Shown: piece by piece, positions 44,608-51,945 of the stretch
How the letters are laid out: each line of letters begins with the position of its first letter
Numbering within the stretch: the stretch's first letter is position 1
IMG/VR virus record: IMGVR_UViG_3300008261_000001
Coordinates: 226,180-290,179 of that record
Source of the DNA: a virus
Length of the DNA stretch: 64,000 bases
Strand: one strand, 5' to 3'
Notes under the pieces: generated by a model
The model's database searches: none
Told to the model about the DNA's origin: nothing
What the model saw: only the letters and a program-made list of their open reading frames with translations
Translations under genes and position numbers: made by a program

Positions 44608-45231
44608 ATGGATTGTGTTGTGGACTATACCCAAGTGCAACCAACCAAGCGTTGGCATTTGGGTGTGTGTACGATTCTTACATTTAACTTTAAGCAGATT
44701 TCACTTAAAAACAAAAAGAAACTAGGGATAGACATAGACAAAAAGCGTGAAGATATAAGACTTCTCTTTTACAAGAGGCAAGCCAAGCAGGTGGCTCGTT
44801 TGGGGCTAGACCCAGAGGATGTACTTCAAGAGGTCTACAAGGGCTTGATTATCCGCAACGAGGGTACTTGCCCTTACGACCCAAAGAAATCTGCCTTCTC
44901 CACCTATGTTGTCATGGTCATGAACTGCGTAGTCATGAACATCGTCAAAAAGCGTAAGCTCTACAACGATAGAGAGGTTGTCGGTGAAGAGGACGATGCC
45001 GCCACCTATAATGTTGCTTCCCATTATCAGAACCAAGACGAAGAGTTATTACTAGAGCAAGTTCGTGGGTCTTTTAACGGAGATTTGCTTAAGGTATATG
45101 ACGCTCTGATGGAGGGTACAAAACACGCCCATATTGCAAACGAGCTTGGTTGGGAGATTCGTAAGGTGAATATGTGCATTAAAGAGATCAGAACGAAGGT
45201 AGCTAACTACTTGGGGCGGTCTGCGGACTAA
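44608..45231 (+). CDS. Sigma-70 family RNA polymerase sigma factor
   Basis: 207 residues; ATG with AGAGAG upstream. Region 2 lies at about 45-118: LGLDPEDVLQEVYKGLI, then FSTYVVMVMNCVV, the core-binding and -10 recognition helices. After an acidic linker, region 4 lies near 160-200 with the helix-turn-helix HIANELGWEIRKVNMCIKEIR. Region 1 and most of region 3 are absent, as in ECF-type and phage late sigma factors. It would redirect host RNA polymerase to phage promoters. The stop overlaps the thymidine kinase stop. Confidence 0.85.
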   Translation: MDCVVDYTQVQPTKRWHLGVCTILTFNFKQISLKNKKKLGIDIDKKREDIRLLFYKRQAKQVARLGLDPEDVLQEVYKGLIIRNEGTCPYDPKKSAFSTYVVMVMNCVVMNIVKKRKLYNDREVVGEEDDAATYNVASHYQNQDEELLLEQVRGSFNGDLLKVYDALMEGTKHAHIANELGWEIRKVNMCIKEIRTKVANYLGRSAD

Positions 45232-45803
45232 ACAGAGAACTTGTAAAGCCCAAAGACCCTCCTCGAAACAGGTAGGTATCCAAAACCTGGGTCTATAGAA
45301 GTACCTTGTGTGATCTGCTGTCCAAGCTCGTCTATCTTCATGTTAAAAGTAGCCCTCTCTGCTTTATTCGAATCAGACCCTACACCAAAAGTGGAAATCT
45401 CTTCGATATTGTCAGCCCAAGCCATAAGATAAATACTGCCCTCAAAAGGTTCACCCTTAAAGTCGGTTCTAAGCCCGTAAGCGAACACAGGTATCTGTAG
45501 TTCGTCTGCAATACGAGTAAGACCCAAGACTTGGTCTTTACTCAAGAACTGAGCCTCATCCACGAATAAGACTTTGATGGGTTTATCCAATACTGCTAGG
45601 TAGGGACATTCTGAGGAGCTTAAGGATTGAGCCTTCTGTGTGAAGCCGATGCGGGAAGCGACTTTGGATACTTCGTCTCTCTGTGAAGCGACATGAGGCA
45701 CTAAGACCTCGTATGGGATTTCTCGCTCAAAGCATGAGTGAGCCCTCATGATAAGGTTGGCACTCTTACCAGCGTTGACGGTGGAGTAGATGAAGGTGAG
45801 CAT
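45228..45803 (-). CDS. tdk: Thymidine kinase (type II)
   Basis: 191 residues from the ATG giving MLTFIYSTVNAGKS, the usual type II start and P-loop. VLFVDEAQFLS is the Walker B and lasso entry; PVFAYGLRTDFKGEPF and SIYLMAWAD follow as in the family. The zinc ribbon that normally has four cysteines lacks them here (STFGVGSDSNKAERATF). It phosphorylates thymidine to dTMP and could also supply precursors for modified pyrimidines. A GTATAAAGGTAAG promoter-like stretch lies about 30 bases upstream. Confidence 0.9.
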   Translation of the reverse strand: MLTFIYSTVNAGKSANLIMRAHSCFEREIPYEVLVPHVASQRDEVSKVASRIGFTQKAQSLSSSECPYLAVLDKPIKVLFVDEAQFLSKDQVLGLTRIADELQIPVFAYGLRTDFKGEPFEGSIYLMAWADNIEEISTFGVGSDSNKAERATFNMKIDELGQQITQGTSIDPGFGYLPVSRRVFGLYKFSV

Positions 45804-45947
45804 CGTTTTTCTTTCCATTTCTAGTTTTCTTACCTTTATACACCTCCAGCACTTATGTGAAATAAAGATTATCCGAAAAAAGATTATCCCAACTCGTGAT
45901 GTTCTCTATTAGGGGGGTGTACACACCCACACCACAGAGAGAACACC

Positions 45948-47069: not shown

Positions 47070-48281
47070 ATGTTTGAGTATGACAGAGAAAAGGGCTTCA
47101 AGACACTTGCGGAGTACAAGCTGTTTGAGGACGGAGAAATCTACATACCACCGCATATATGGAAAGAGATTAAGGATCAGTTCCCTCGTGATGAGGTGAT
47201 ACTACACTTATCCAATCTTTTGAGGGCTATGCCTTTTCCTTTGACGCAGTATTCGGCGGCGGAGGTTCTATCCGATTGGAACAGCTTGAAGAACACCCCT
47301 CAAAATGTCGAGATGACTGAATGGACTTGTCATAGGTTGTTCGACAGTATTCCCCTTCTGTACCGAGGAAAGCCTTGCCTTATCCAATCTAACACGAAGG
47401 GCAGAAAGGTATCCAATCAGTTTACTGAGTCTGTTAGGATGGAGTGTGGTTCAAAAGCATTTCCATCCCCTATTTCGTACTGGACGGAAAACAAGGTCAT
47501 GTATTGGCTCAGATCTCTTTGGACTCTCTTAGACGATAAAGAGGGGTTAAACGGAAGGAGTATTCAACAATGCATCGCCTTAAGTTCTTATGTGGCGAGT
47601 CAGTTTAATCCTAGCACAGCTAAGTGCATTTATGACTTCTTTGGGGCTAAGAAGGTCTTGGACTTATCTATGGGTTGGGGGGATAGACTCGTAGGGTTTC
47701 TAGCTAGTGGTGCGGATAGTTATGTGGGCATAGACCCCAACACTAAGCTCCACACGCCCTATCAGAGCATCTGCGATTGGACAGAGAACAAGGGGGGCTT
47801 GGATAAGCCTAAAACGACTCGGTTCATCTGTTCACCTGCTGAGGAGGCGGACTTATCCAATATGAAGTTCGACTTTGTGTTTACCTCGCCTCCGTACTTC
47901 AACATAGAGAGGTACTCCGAGGATGGAACACAGAGCTGGAAACGCTATAAGCAGTTATCCGCTTGGCATGAGGGCTTTTTGTTCCCGTCTTTGAAGAAGG
48001 CTTGGGACAGCTTAGAGGAGGGCGGTCGGATAGCCATCAACATCGCAGACAGCTTGAGAGATAAGCATAACATCTGTACGCCCATGTTATCCTATATGGA
48101 GTCGATAGGTGCAACTTACGAGGGTGTTATGGGGTATCGTATGTCTAAGCGACCTGGGAACTTTTCTCAGTACACGGATGATATAAAAGAGATCGGTGTG
48201 TTTGGTGAGCCGATATTTATATGGAGTAAGGGGGAAGCCCCTGAGCCCAAGTGGAACCAAGATAACTTCTTTGGAGTCTGA
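47070..48281 (+). CDS. TSPPY-type SAM-dependent methyltransferase, copy 1
   Basis: 403 residues; ATG with GAGGAGG. Motif I is VLDLSMGWGDRLVGF (D198-G204 core), the acidic SAM-ribose loop is GIDPN (220-224) and motif IV is FTSPPYF (271-277), the amino-methyltransferase signature of N4-cytosine and N6-adenine enzymes. The N-terminal 180 residues are a conserved non-catalytic domain shared with copy 2. No separate target-recognition domain and no restriction partner are seen. It is the first of five tightly linked genes (TGATG overlap with the next). It could methylate DNA, or a modified nucleotide or small molecule made by the cassette. Confidence 0.85.
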   Translation: MFEYDREKGFKTLAEYKLFEDGEIYIPPHIWKEIKDQFPRDEVILHLSNLLRAMPFPLTQYSAAEVLSDWNSLKNTPQNVEMTEWTCHRLFDSIPLLYRGKPCLIQSNTKGRKVSNQFTESVRMECGSKAFPSPISYWTENKVMYWLRSLWTLLDDKEGLNGRSIQQCIALSSYVASQFNPSTAKCIYDFFGAKKVLDLSMGWGDRLVGFLASGADSYVGIDPNTKLHTPYQSICDWTENKGGLDKPKTTRFICSPAEEADLSNMKFDFVFTSPPYFNIERYSEDGTQSWKRYKQLSAWHEGFLFPSLKKAWDSLEEGGRIAINIADSLRDKHNICTPMLSYMESIGATYEGVMGYRMSKRPGNFSQYTDDIKEIGVFGEPIFIWSKGEAPEPKWNQDNFFGV

Positions 48282-48991
48282 TGATGTACCATATAACAGC
48301 AAAAAATTGTGCAGAGGCATGGGTGAAAGCCACACAAGATATTCTCGACAAAGGGGAGGATATGGGGGGGTTGTACGAGATATTAAATATGGGGATAGAG
48401 ATAACCTCTTCTGAAGTGTGTCCTTTGTTTGACGAGGAGTTTCGTAAGGTTTTTGGGGACGAGAGAATAGACTATGCGAAGTCTGTGACTTTCGTGCGTC
48501 CTGAGCCTAATGTGCTTTTCCCTCAAATGATGGATTATAGACAGAACCAAGAAGGGAAATGGACTAATAGTTATTGGGGTCGTATGATCTCTTGGAACGG
48601 TGGATATAATCAGATAGAGCAGGCGATAAAGAGGCTTCAACAAAACAAGCAGTCTAAAACCATCGTCATTGGTGTTTTCGATCCTCAGACGGATGGGAAA
48701 AAACAAATGGGTGGTATGCCCTGCTTACTGACAATAGACTTAAAGCCTAGAGGTGGGAAGCTCAATCTCACAGCAAACTTTAGAAGCCAAGCGGTATCTA
48801 AGTCTGGCTATGCCGATTATATGGCGTTAGTAGAGTTGTGTGATTTCTTGTGCAAAGAGAGCGGTTGTCTCGACTTTGGACTTGTCACTTCATTCGCTCA
48901 CTCTTGCCATGTACGCACCGAAAACAACGAGCTGAAAAACTCAAAGCGACTTATGGAGCAGTATGGAAACCGAATGGGTGAACTCGTTTAA
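48281..48991 (+). CDS. Thymidylate synthase-like pyrimidine C5-modifying enzyme
   Basis: 236 residues (a second ATG three bases on is an equal choice). C148 in GGMPCLLTIDL is the nucleophile that attacks C6 of the pyrimidine; FRSQ (167-170) gives the phosphate-binding arginine; SGYADYMALVEL replaces the canonical GLPFNIASYALL, so the uracil-reading Asn is missing and an Asp is nearby; SFAHSCH stands where DAHIY is usual. The N-terminus (AEAWVKATQDIL) matches divergent phage homologues. These changes fit a dUMP/dCMP hydroxymethylase-type enzyme rather than standard ThyA. It overlaps the PP-loop gene by 29 bases. Confidence 0.8.
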   Translation: MMYHITAKNCAEAWVKATQDILDKGEDMGGLYEILNMGIEITSSEVCPLFDEEFRKVFGDERIDYAKSVTFVRPEPNVLFPQMMDYRQNQEGKWTNSYWGRMISWNGGYNQIEQAIKRLQQNKQSKTIVIGVFDPQTDGKKQMGGMPCLLTIDLKPRGGKLNLTANFRSQAVSKSGYADYMALVELCDFLCKESGCLDFGLVTSFAHSCHVRTENNELKNSKRLMEQYGNRMGELV

Positions 48992-49883
48992 GACACTCAT
49001 CTATGAGTCGATAAAATCGTTACCTGACGAGGTGAGCTTGTCTTTTAGCGGAGGTATTGACTCCTCTATGATCTTATTCACTATGATTGATTTAGGGAAG
49101 CCCCCCAAAGAACTCATCACATTTGAGATAGAGGGAGAGCCGTCTAAAGATTTAGAATATGCTAAAAAGATTGCACAGCATTACGATCTGCCTTTGAAGG
49201 TTGCGAAGATCCCATCTTCTCCGAGTCGTGACGACTTATTAGGGGAAGTTAAAGAAGTTATTAAGACCACACGCACCACGAGGAACATTGAAACTCAAGT
49301 GTGCTACGCATATTCCTACATGATACCCCTTATTACAACAGAGCATCTGGTCACAGGGTTTTACGAAGACATACTGTTCGCCACGAATGCAAACATCTCT
49401 TCAAAGTACAGCAAACACCTTAAAGGTTTAATGTCCAAAGAGGATTTTGATGATGAATATAAACTGATTAGAAAACAAGTATTTGAGGGGAAATACAAAT
49501 CTGGTGCGGAACACAACTACCTTGTGATTATGAGGTACTTGGAGGCGAAAGGCATTAAAGTAGAATGTCCTTATAATACGGATTGTATATACAATTTATT
49601 TCAATCCCTCACTTTTAAACAAACGAACTATAATCCCAATACAGGTAAGAAACATAAAAAGTGGTTCATCACAGAAGAAACGCATAAAGATTTTTTTGCT
49701 CTGTTCAATAACCATAAAAACATCAATAATATGCACACAACAGGTAAAGATGGCGGGCTTAAAGGTCTACATAGGCGTGTGTTATTAACAGGGACATCTT
49801 TTAAGGACACAAGGGCTATTTATAACGAGGTACTGAAAGAAATTGAGTTTGAAGAAAAGGCTATGTTCGATGTTAAACTTTAA
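48963..49883 (+). CDS. PP-loop ATPase, asparagine-synthase-like
   Basis: 306 residues. SFSGGIDSSM (27-36) is the PP-loop that binds ATP and makes an adenylate; the following strand and helix (ELITFEIEGEPSKDLEYAKKIAQHYDLPL) match the adenine nucleotide alpha-hydrolase fold. There is no N-terminal glutaminase domain and no QueC-type zinc cysteines, so it is neither a full asparagine synthetase nor an obvious 7-deazaguanine enzyme. It would activate a carboxylate or carbonyl for amide, amidine or thio transfer. Embedded between the thymidylate-synthase-like and PLP genes with overlaps on both sides. Confidence 0.82.
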   Translation: METEWVNSFKTLIYESIKSLPDEVSLSFSGGIDSSMILFTMIDLGKPPKELITFEIEGEPSKDLEYAKKIAQHYDLPLKVAKIPSSPSRDDLLGEVKEVIKTTRTTRNIETQVCYAYSYMIPLITTEHLVTGFYEDILFATNANISSKYSKHLKGLMSKEDFDDEYKLIRKQVFEGKYKSGAEHNYLVIMRYLEAKGIKVECPYNTDCIYNLFQSLTFKQTNYNPNTGKKHKKWFITEETHKDFFALFNNHKNINNMHTTGKDGGLKGLHRRVLLTGTSFKDTRAIYNEVLKEIEFEEKAMFDVKL

Positions 49884-50703
49884 TACGCCTTTAGAGACTT
49901 ACACTGTGGCTCACAAAAACATAGATGTGAAGCGAGATGACTTGCTTAATGGAGACCTCGATCTGCCTCCGTGGGCTAAACTTGAAGGGGTTCGCAGACT
50001 GCTCGAATCGGATTACTATAAGAAGGATAAACCGATTGTGCATCTGACCGTTAGGGGGAGTTACACAGGGTGGGTGTTGTCTTATTGGGGGAAACAAATG
50101 GGGTACGACATAAAGATTGCTTACCCTAACACAAAAAACTACGGACAAGTTATGCTCGATAAGATCACCCAGTATGGCGGAGAACTTATCCCTCTTAAAC
50201 ACAACATGGTAGCTGTTCTTTCGGCACAAACTAAAAAAATGGCTTCTGAAAATGATTGGCAGATGAGCCCAGACGCTTTTAATCATCCGATCTATATAGA
50301 CTATTGGACACAACGCTCGACTGAGTTTTTCAAAGAAAACGAGTACGATACTCTTGTCGTACAAGGAGGGAGTGGAGTCACATCTGTTGGACTCATCAAA
50401 GGGTTTTTAGGTGTGGATTACATCTCAGGGTCTCTATTTGAATCGGATTACGGAAAGAAGAAAATCGTCCTCGTGGCTACCTCAAGTGTTAAGACCGTCA
50501 CAAACGCTCTGATCTCTAATCTAGGTGCTGTGCCTTCTTGTCTCAAGGTCTATAAGTCTGAGTACGACTTTTACGATGAAATGGAACACCTAACGACCCC
50601 ATTCCCTTGCAACCCTTATTGGGACAAGAAAGCGTGGGGCTGGATTCAAGATAACCCAGATAAGATGAAAGGTCGTACCCTGTTTTGGAATCTAGGAGCT
50701 TAA
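49870..50703 (+). CDS. PLP-dependent enzyme, ACC deaminase/cysteine synthase-like (fold type II)
   Basis: 277 residues from the ATG at 49870, which overlaps the PP-loop stop by 14 bases; an upstream TTG is less likely. VKRDDLL (20-26) followed by LPPWAKLEGVRRLLE places K37 where ACC deaminase and D-cysteine desulfhydrase have the Schiff-base lysine in GGNKxRKLE. TVRGSYTGWVLSYWGKQMG matches the substrate loop and helix, and VVQGGSGVTSVGL (163-175) the phosphate cup. Fold type II enzymes do beta- or gamma-replacement and elimination on amino acids. In this cassette it may make or attach an amino-acid-derived group. The exact reaction is not readable. Confidence 0.82.
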   Translation: MLNFNTPLETYTVAHKNIDVKRDDLLNGDLDLPPWAKLEGVRRLLESDYYKKDKPIVHLTVRGSYTGWVLSYWGKQMGYDIKIAYPNTKNYGQVMLDKITQYGGELIPLKHNMVAVLSAQTKKMASENDWQMSPDAFNHPIYIDYWTQRSTEFFKENEYDTLVVQGGSGVTSVGLIKGFLGVDYISGSLFESDYGKKKIVLVATSSVKTVTNALISNLGAVPSCLKVYKSEYDFYDEMEHLTTPFPCNPYWDKKAWGWIQDNPDKMKGRTLFWNLGA

Positions 50704-50724
50704 ACCTTTTTTCGGGGTCTAGTT

Positions 50725-51945
50725 ATGTTTTTTGATTATGAGCGAACAAAGTTATCTTCTCTAGATGACTATGAACTGACGACCGACTCTAAGATTTCTA
50801 TTCCTCCCCACATATGGCGTGAGATTACAACGACTTTCAGTAAGAAAGATATCATTGAACATCTGTCCAATCTTATTGAAGTGGGGAAACTCCCTTTTCC
50901 GCTGAGGGAGTACTCATCAGCGGGGTTGGATCTTGACTTCAAGATGCTGAAAAACGAGGATTGCTTAGTAAAGCTAGGTGATTGGGAGTGCCTAAGGACA
51001 ATCCCCAACCAAGAGCTGAGTTATCGTGGGCGTAGGTGTTATTTTAACCCTTCTTCTAATGGATTAAGCGTTTCGGATAACTTCACTCAGCTTGAAAGGA
51101 TGGAGTGTTCTCACTTTGAACATAAGAGTCCAATGAGGGAATGGACGAGGGAAGGTTGTAGGTCAAAGACACGCTATATGCTGAGGGTCTTATGGACACT
51201 TAACGAGAAGGACGCTTTAGAGAACGGTGTTAGCAATAAGCAGTTAAGAGACTGCATACGGCTTGGAAACTACCAAGCAAGTCAGTTCAAGCCCTCATGT
51301 GCTAAGACGATTTATGACTTCTTTGGGGCTAAGAAGGTCTTGGACTTTTCAGCAGGTTGGGGGGACAGACTCGTTGGCTTCCTAGCGTCTAGTGCCGAGA
51401 GCTATGTGGGCATAGATCCTAACTCAAAACTAACGGATAAGTATAGAGCCATATCTAGCTTTTGCTCTACGGATAAACAGACAAGTTTCATCTGCTCCCC
51501 CGCAGAAGACGCTGACTTATCCAATATGAGATTCGACTTTGTGTTTACCTCCCCCCCTTACTTCAACATCGAGAGGTATTCAGAGGAGAGTACTCAGTCT
51601 TGGAAACGCTATAAGACGGAGAGCGACTGGTTGGAGTTTTTCTTGTTGGTCGCTTTAAAGAAATCTTGGGACAGCTTAGAAGACGGTGGGAGGATAGCTA
51701 TCAACATCGCGGATAAGGGTCATTCAAGGACAGATGTCATTTCTTCTATCTGTACGCCTATGCTGTCTTATATGGAGTCTTTAGGTGCGGTGTTTGAGGG
51801 GGTGATAGGATATAGGATGAATAAAAGACCTGGTGACAGAATGGGTTCTGTAGGTGGTTCGGTGTTCGGTGAACCTATATTCGTGTGGTCTAAAGGTGTT
51901 GCCACCGAACCCAAGTGGAAGCAAGACAACTTCTTTGGGATCTGA
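50725..51945 (+). CDS. TSPPY-type SAM-dependent methyltransferase, copy 2
   Basis: 406 residues. Collinear with copy 1 over its whole length: FDYERTKL start, IPPHIWREI, VLDFSAGWGDRLVGF (D207-G213), GIDPN, SFICSPAEDADLSNM, FTSPPYFNIERYSEESTQSWKRY (motif IV 275-280) and the ending KWKQDNFFGI. Differences are spread across the middle of the N-terminal domain, which may read the substrate. A duplicated enzyme kept at both ends of a cassette suggests two related substrates or two steps. Confidence 0.85.
   Translation: MFFDYERTKLSSLDDYELTTDSKISIPPHIWREITTTFSKKDIIEHLSNLIEVGKLPFPLREYSSAGLDLDFKMLKNEDCLVKLGDWECLRTIPNQELSYRGRRCYFNPSSNGLSVSDNFTQLERMECSHFEHKSPMREWTREGCRSKTRYMLRVLWTLNEKDALENGVSNKQLRDCIRLGNYQASQFKPSCAKTIYDFFGAKKVLDFSAGWGDRLVGFLASSAESYVGIDPNSKLTDKYRAISSFCSTDKQTSFICSPAEDADLSNMRFDFVFTSPPYFNIERYSEESTQSWKRYKTESDWLEFFLLVALKKSWDSLEDGGRIAINIADKGHSRTDVISSICTPMLSYMESLGAVFEGVIGYRMNKRPGDRMGSVGGSVFGEPIFVWSKGVATEPKWKQDNFFGI

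Follow-up and report, generated by a model that had tools for sequence, protein, structure and literature searches.

A conserved phage operon with candidate enzymes for amino-acid hypermodification of cytosine

Closest described systems

Amino-acid hypermodification of DNA is known on thymidine, starting from 5-hydroxymethyl-deoxyuridine (5-hmdU), and, via carboxymethylation, on cytosine. Many other phage base-modification systems, including lysidine-like pyrimidines made with PP-loop enzymes, were reportedly predicted by Iyer et al. in 2013, and these predictions may include part of the gene set considered here. This set is a five-gene cassette in a stretch of 64,000 nucleotides (the window; positions 226180-290179) of the 290,179-base virus record IMGVR_UViG_3300008261_000001, labelled G000, which belongs to a contractile-tailed phage (myovirus), since baseplate wedge proteins are encoded in the window. 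Two paralogous methyltransferases, M1 and M2, flank a thymidylate synthase (TS)-like protein, a PP-loop protein and a fold-type II pyridoxal phosphate (PLP) enzyme. On the whole, the evidence tips towards a phage operon that hypermodifies DNA at cytosine, with its reactions and final base predicted from homology and conserved residues. The cassette would most likely attach and then trim an amino-acid-like group on cytosine of the phage DNA, and for this it most likely combines parts from two known DNA-modification pathways in a new way. The initial annotation of this DNA did not recognise the exact gene set as a described pathway, and no description was found in the literature searched.

Pseudomonas phage M6, the 5-(2-aminoethyl)-deoxyuridine phage, likewise has a TS-family hydroxymethylase and a homologous PLP enzyme, gp52, in a DNA-modification cassette, and gp52 is said by Lee et al. 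to decarboxylate the appended amino acid. In M6-like phages the PLP gene is held inside a thymidine-modification cassette (PMC9476957). The present locus differs from M6 in that its TS-like enzyme is of predicted cytidine type (Asp where M6 gp58 has Asn) and that a PP-loop ligase stands in place of the 5-hmdU DNA kinase and the amino acid:DNA transferase (ADDT), which were undetected, like CmoA below, in searches of G000 and 13 relatives, records that may be fragments.

The CmoA/CmoX/CmoY pathway of Synechococcus phage S-B43, with a ligase homologue in Staphylococcus phage vB-SscS-F1, shares with this locus a stand-alone PP-loop amide-ligase family beside a DNA-modification enzyme. However, no CmoA was detected here, a C5-methyltransferase occurs only in one relative (G010), and TS-like and PLP genes are added. 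The T4 deoxycytidine monophosphate (dCMP) hydroxymethylase and MetaGPA-type cytosine modifications (5-hydroxymethylcytosine, 5-carbamoyloxymethylcytosine) are similar in that an Asp177-type TS homologue shares its genome with a dCMP deaminase-family gene, whereas the present cassette lacks a glucosyl- or carbamoyltransferase and has a ligase, a PLP enzyme and unusual phosphate-site residues. MilA, the cytidine monophosphate (CMP) hydroxymethylase of mildiomycin, is the closest solved structure by profile, but the similarity is weak (E 0.002) and the genes here lie in a phage operon, not an antibiotic cluster. The operon appears to join one enzyme from the thymidine system and one from the carboxymethylcytosine system with a cytidine-type hydroxymethylase and, if this is true, hydroxymethylcytosine would become a further starting point for amino-acid decoration and the operon a source of new DNA-labelling enzymes.

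Organization and conservation of the cassette

The five genes are as follows (window coordinates; aa, amino acids):

47070-48281, + strand: M1, S-adenosylmethionine (SAM)-dependent amino-methyltransferase, motif IV TSPPY, 403 aa (Pfam N6_N4_Mtase, AlphaFold2)
48281-48991, + strand: TS-like pyrimidine hydroxymethylase (predicted, cytidine-type), 236 aa (Pfam PF00303, PDB profile matches, alignment)
48963-49883, + strand: PP-loop ATP-dependent ligase (predicted), SGGIDSS, CmoY-like, without glutaminase domain, 306 aa (Asn_synthase, profile match)
49870-50703, + strand: fold-type II PLP enzyme, M6 gp52-like, invariant Lys37, 277 aa from ATG (PHROG_7093, alignment with M6 gp52)
50725-51945, + strand: M2, paralogue of M1, TSPPY, 406 aa (identity to M1, N6_N4_Mtase)

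Open reading frame calls bear out the genes, coordinates, order, strand and joins of the initial annotation: the end of M1 and the start of the TS-like gene share TGATG, the TS-like and PP-loop genes overlap by 29 bases, and the PP-loop and PLP genes by 14 bases when counted from the ATG at 49870, which is used here (a TTG at 49843 gives the longest PLP reading frame). The two methyltransferases that flank the trio are indeed paralogous, being 58% identical and both carrying TSPPY.

When the same neighbourhood was sought in other genomes, a check that the initial annotation had proposed, the TS-like/PP-loop/PLP core was found in the same order, and overlapping, in another five large viral contigs, each between 109 and 376 kb long (six contigs with the window), with homologues of the TSPPY methyltransferases in tandem copies on both sides of the trio. 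Protein identity to the window is 82-87% for the TS-like protein, 52-62% for the PP-loop protein and 70-79% for the PLP enzyme. Where measured, the overlaps range from 20 to 29 bases (TS-like/PP-loop) and from 7 to 14 bases (PP-loop/PLP): those of 29 and 14 bases recur identically in L006 and L007, where the PLP gene starts with ATG or GTG, while L008 has 20 and 7. In the close pair L006/L007, the ratio of nonsynonymous to synonymous substitution rates (dN/dS) is about 0.03 for the TS-like gene, 0.08 for PP-loop, 0.06 for PLP and 0.05 for one methyltransferase; in the comparison of L006 with the window, dN is 0.11-0.32 and the synonymous sites have reached saturation. Such recurrence of gene order and low dN/dS argue that the cassette is not a product of chance, and indicate strong purifying selection on genes that are functional and kept together. 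The cassette has a GC content of 38-47%, similar to or somewhat lower than the 45-50% of the contig. Just upstream of it, a thymidine kinase is encoded on the minus strand (window 45228-45818).

The PLP enzyme and the PP-loop protein

The PLP enzyme matches Pfam PALP at 1.5e-7, below the Pfam cut-off, and its best phage family is PHROG_7093 (threonine dehydratase), matched over the full length with an E value of 2.7e-23. The window protein has no blast-level relative among 50,697 phage records; with the viral locus L019 as intermediate, 66 phage records are matched, among them M6 gp52 (29% identity, 9e-21), and in the alignment gp52 has a lysine and the C-terminal signature PFPCN...KAW...FWNIG in common with it. 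The initial annotation had proposed a pocket comparison with ACC deaminase, but this homology and C-terminal signature make M6 gp52 its closest functional relative instead. Its proposed remodelling role is upheld as far as descent from a DNA-hypermodification lineage is concerned, and the reaction itself is suggested by homology to gp52.

The PP-loop protein matches Asn_synthase at 1.4e-7, with about 117 columns of the AsnB PP-loop domain covered, and the vB-SscS-F1 ligase by profile at 6.9e-10 over nearly its full length (residues 22-290). The vB-SscS-F1 ligase neighbours a CmoA homologue (TIGR00740, 9e-49) and a C5-methyltransferase, and at the same position S-B43 has CmoY (SpCmoY), which ligates glycine to 5-carboxymethylcytosine in DNA (PMC12783734). 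The window protein is thus CmoY-like by its match to the vB-SscS-F1 ligase at the CmoY position. The initial view of a PP-loop protein activating an amino-acid-derived group holds insofar as homology points to an ATP-dependent ligase from a DNA-hypermodification lineage, now more precisely a CmoY-like one. The protein consists of the PP-loop part alone, so it lacks the glutaminase domain (N-terminal Cys) of asparagine synthetase B. In vB-SscS-F1 itself, the CmoA homologue, PP-loop ligase and C5-methyltransferase stand in a row (L001 6260-8778), likely a 5-carboxymethylcytosine pathway.

A PLP enzyme beside a PP-loop protein could also make a thiolated pyrimidine, the former freeing sulfide from cysteine and the latter inserting the sulfur, as in tRNA thiolation. 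The PLP enzyme belongs to the PALP fold family and has cysteine synthases among its weak PDB matches, and PP-loop proteins include thiolases, with TtuA a weak match here. However, the only invariant Cys of the PP-loop family is Cys202 and there is no CxxC motif, the full-length match is to a ligase at the CmoY position, and the architecture seen in relatives is that of a true AsnB, glutaminase included, all of which make thiolation very improbable.

The TS-like protein and the predicted target base

The TS-like protein matches Pfam Thymidylat_synt (PF00303) at 1.9e-6 and has only weak relatives (24-25% identity) among the 50,697 phage records. Its PDB profile matches are headed by MilA (E 0.0019) and T4 dCMP hydroxymethylase, followed by thymidylate synthases; with E values from 0.002 to 0.1, they provide a ranking rather than proof. 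Catalytic Cys148 and Asp179 are both invariant in the family. The window Asp179 aligns with T4 Asp179 and with TS Asn177, and this position is Asp in all five aligned family members and in the enzyme of Enterococcus phage nattely, which is encoded two genes away from an annotated beta-glucosyltransferase, and Asn in M6 gp58. The change from Asn177 to Asp is an established uridine-to-cytidine switch and the chief residue by which TS homologues stand out on contigs obtained by selection for modified cytosine, which likewise carry dCMP deaminase-family genes (PMC8670742). Such deaminase-family genes are present in G000; a MazG-like PRA-PH was not found in seven records tested. With Asp at TS position 177 and CMP/dCMP hydroxymethylases as the closest solved relatives, cytosine is favoured, and the TS-like protein is most likely a cytidine-type hydroxymethylase. 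C5 hydroxymethylation of an unspecified pyrimidine had been proposed earlier; the TS-family hydroxymethylase stands, and the residues now point to cytosine as the base.

Proposed pathway and alternative entries

In the proposed pathway, the TS-like enzyme would act, as its residues suggest, on a cytidine nucleotide, to whose C5 it would add a one-carbon group donated by methylene-tetrahydrofolate, and the resulting 5-hydroxymethyl-dCMP would enter DNA. By homology, the PP-loop enzyme would then couple an amino acid after ATP-dependent activation of either the base substituent or the partner to be joined to it; in relatives with a glutaminase domain, ammonia may be coupled instead. The appended amino acid would be the substrate of the M6 gp52-like PLP enzyme, by homology, and would most likely be decarboxylated to an amine. 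The original hypermodification idea is thus strengthened, in that the TS-family hydroxymethylase, the ATP-dependent ligase and the PLP enzyme make up a conserved phage operon, with the base and the enzyme identities corrected. More tentatively, and with a good deal of doubt, the PP-loop ligase might replace both the kinase and the amino-acid transferase of thymidine systems by attaching either an amino acid or just an amino group directly to a C5-hydroxymethyl-type cytosine before PLP decarboxylation, with a widespread sister version whose handle comes from a TS-independent hydroxylase/dehydrogenase.

Cassettes that include this PLP enzyme occur widely among uncultured viral contigs. In further viral loci the PLP relatives are more distant, for the most part 41-57% identical, and are encoded together with a TSPPY methyltransferase and a full AsnB-like protein (glutaminase and PP-loop), the short loci being only partial. 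Their further gene or genes are either TS-like (L020, L023, L039) or 2-hydroxyacid-dehydrogenase-like and Asp/Asn-hydroxylase-like; the TS-less cassettes, found among L018-L040 and L051, apparently form a sister pathway. In the 14 records, here searched whole, TS occurs in seven (G000-G005, G008) and the hydroxylase in the other seven (G006, G007, G009-G013), none having both or neither, although some are fragments and their relatedness means fewer than 14 independent events. This mutually exclusive occurrence points to two alternative entries into a shared PLP and ligase pathway, one by TS and the other by the hydroxylase/dehydrogenase pair. In many relatives an HD-domain phosphohydrolase-like gene directly follows the PLP gene (cluster c4 of L018-L054, e.g. 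L023 8789-9547), and its product could remove canonical nucleotides.

The hydroxylase-like and dehydrogenase-like proteins could instead have free amino or hydroxy acids as their substrates. Together with MilA as the top PDB match of the TS-like protein, this would fit a nucleotide-linked small molecule, a free hydroxymethylcytidine- or amino-acid-derived metabolite made by the middle three genes, as MilA serves mildiomycin, with the methyltransferases as chance neighbours. This alternative, already raised in the initial annotation, is weakened by the distribution of the PLP subfamily, which was found in 31 viral loci and in none of 84,980 bacterial and archaeal species genomes, in two scans that rely on short exact seed peptides and could miss distant homologues. 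In addition, the closest phage PLP homologue sits in a DNA-modification cassette, and all 14 records tested keep a member of the DNA-type TSPPY methyltransferase family. A small-molecule role is therefore rather improbable.

Several observations weigh against the proposed cytosine pathway. The phosphate-binding Arg pair (R126/R127 of E. coli TS) is Lys-Thr in the window and its relatives, compared with RR in M6, nattely, Forza and T4 and KR in MilA, and the sugar-binding Tyr after a conserved His is Arg or Gly in the family; with both sites altered, the TS-like substrate may be unusual and not an ordinary deoxynucleoside monophosphate. TS is absent from half of the related records, and the AlphaFold2 model of the PP-loop protein, built with four sequences, is unusable (mean predicted confidence, pLDDT, of 48). 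Moreover, CmoA, the carboxy-SAM (Cx-SAM) synthase, was detected neither in G000 nor in its 13 relatives, PF18723 and PF18724 (5-hmdU DNA kinase and ADDT) are missing from all 14 records, and the cassette has no enzyme making the carboxylate that CmoY uses. A CmoX-type cytosine C5-transferase (PF00145) is likewise absent from G000, with G010 the one positive record of the 14, so that neither known way of preparing a base for amino-acid attachment was detected in these searches. Nor does the cassette itself encode a radical SAM isomerase as expected of an M6-type system, the rest of G000 having been covered by a crude motif scan and no family search.

The altered phosphate site, together with a closest PLP homologue from a thymidine-hypermodification phage, could also mean that the target is thymine, through a uridine-derived base as in M6, or that RNA is modified. 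This is unlikely, given that every aligned family member has Asp in place of TS Asn177, whereas the M6 enzyme has Asn.

The methyltransferases

M1 and M2 match Pfam N6_N4_Mtase just below the cut-off (3e-5 and 2e-5); they have the SAM-binding motif I, and the TSPPY of motif IV, which with motif I marks exocyclic-amine methyltransferases, is invariant in 13 copies. The AlphaFold2 model of M1 (pLDDT 84) matches general SAM-methyltransferase cores in the PDB that do not discriminate N4-C from N6-A, including CamA and Cx-SAM-bound CmoB. The latter, with CmoB also the sole NCBIfam match (very weak) and a CmoY-like ligase nearby, raises a carboxymethyl route, in which the host would supply Cx-SAM, the TSPPY enzymes would use it to carboxymethylate C or A at the exocyclic amine, and amidation by the PP-loop/AsnB-like enzyme would follow, with TS and PLP acting elsewhere on the same chain; with ammonia on adenine, a Mom-type base would result. 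A phage carboxymethyltransferase can indeed be fed by host CmoA, but no N4/N6 candidates were found associated with CmoA (PMC12783734), the CmoB similarity is confined to the general SAM-binding core, and the 14 records have no detected CmoA of their own, which leaves this route a slim chance.

Under the favoured cytosine operon, the TSPPY enzymes had been expected to methylate its product. This is not supported: they form a multi-copy family, with 3-7 matches per whole large record, and their N-terminal halves are divergent (mean pairwise identity of 34-41%, compared with 63-75% for the catalytic halves). Tandem copies of this kind fit several sequence-specific DNA specificities, a layer probably separate from hypermodification, in which the paralogues would recognise several DNA motifs, methylate exocyclic amines there and so add anti-restriction protection.

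A third TSPPY methyltransferase of the same family lies 54-55 kb upstream of the cassette (G000 217762-218973; L065 17753-18973). Furthermore, four near-alike DPPY methyltransferase genes (189-196 aa, N6_N4_Mtase) stand in tandem at 15830-19400 of L059 (G000 80001-100000), directly before a dCMP deaminase-family gene, and constitute a second methyltransferase array of the phage.

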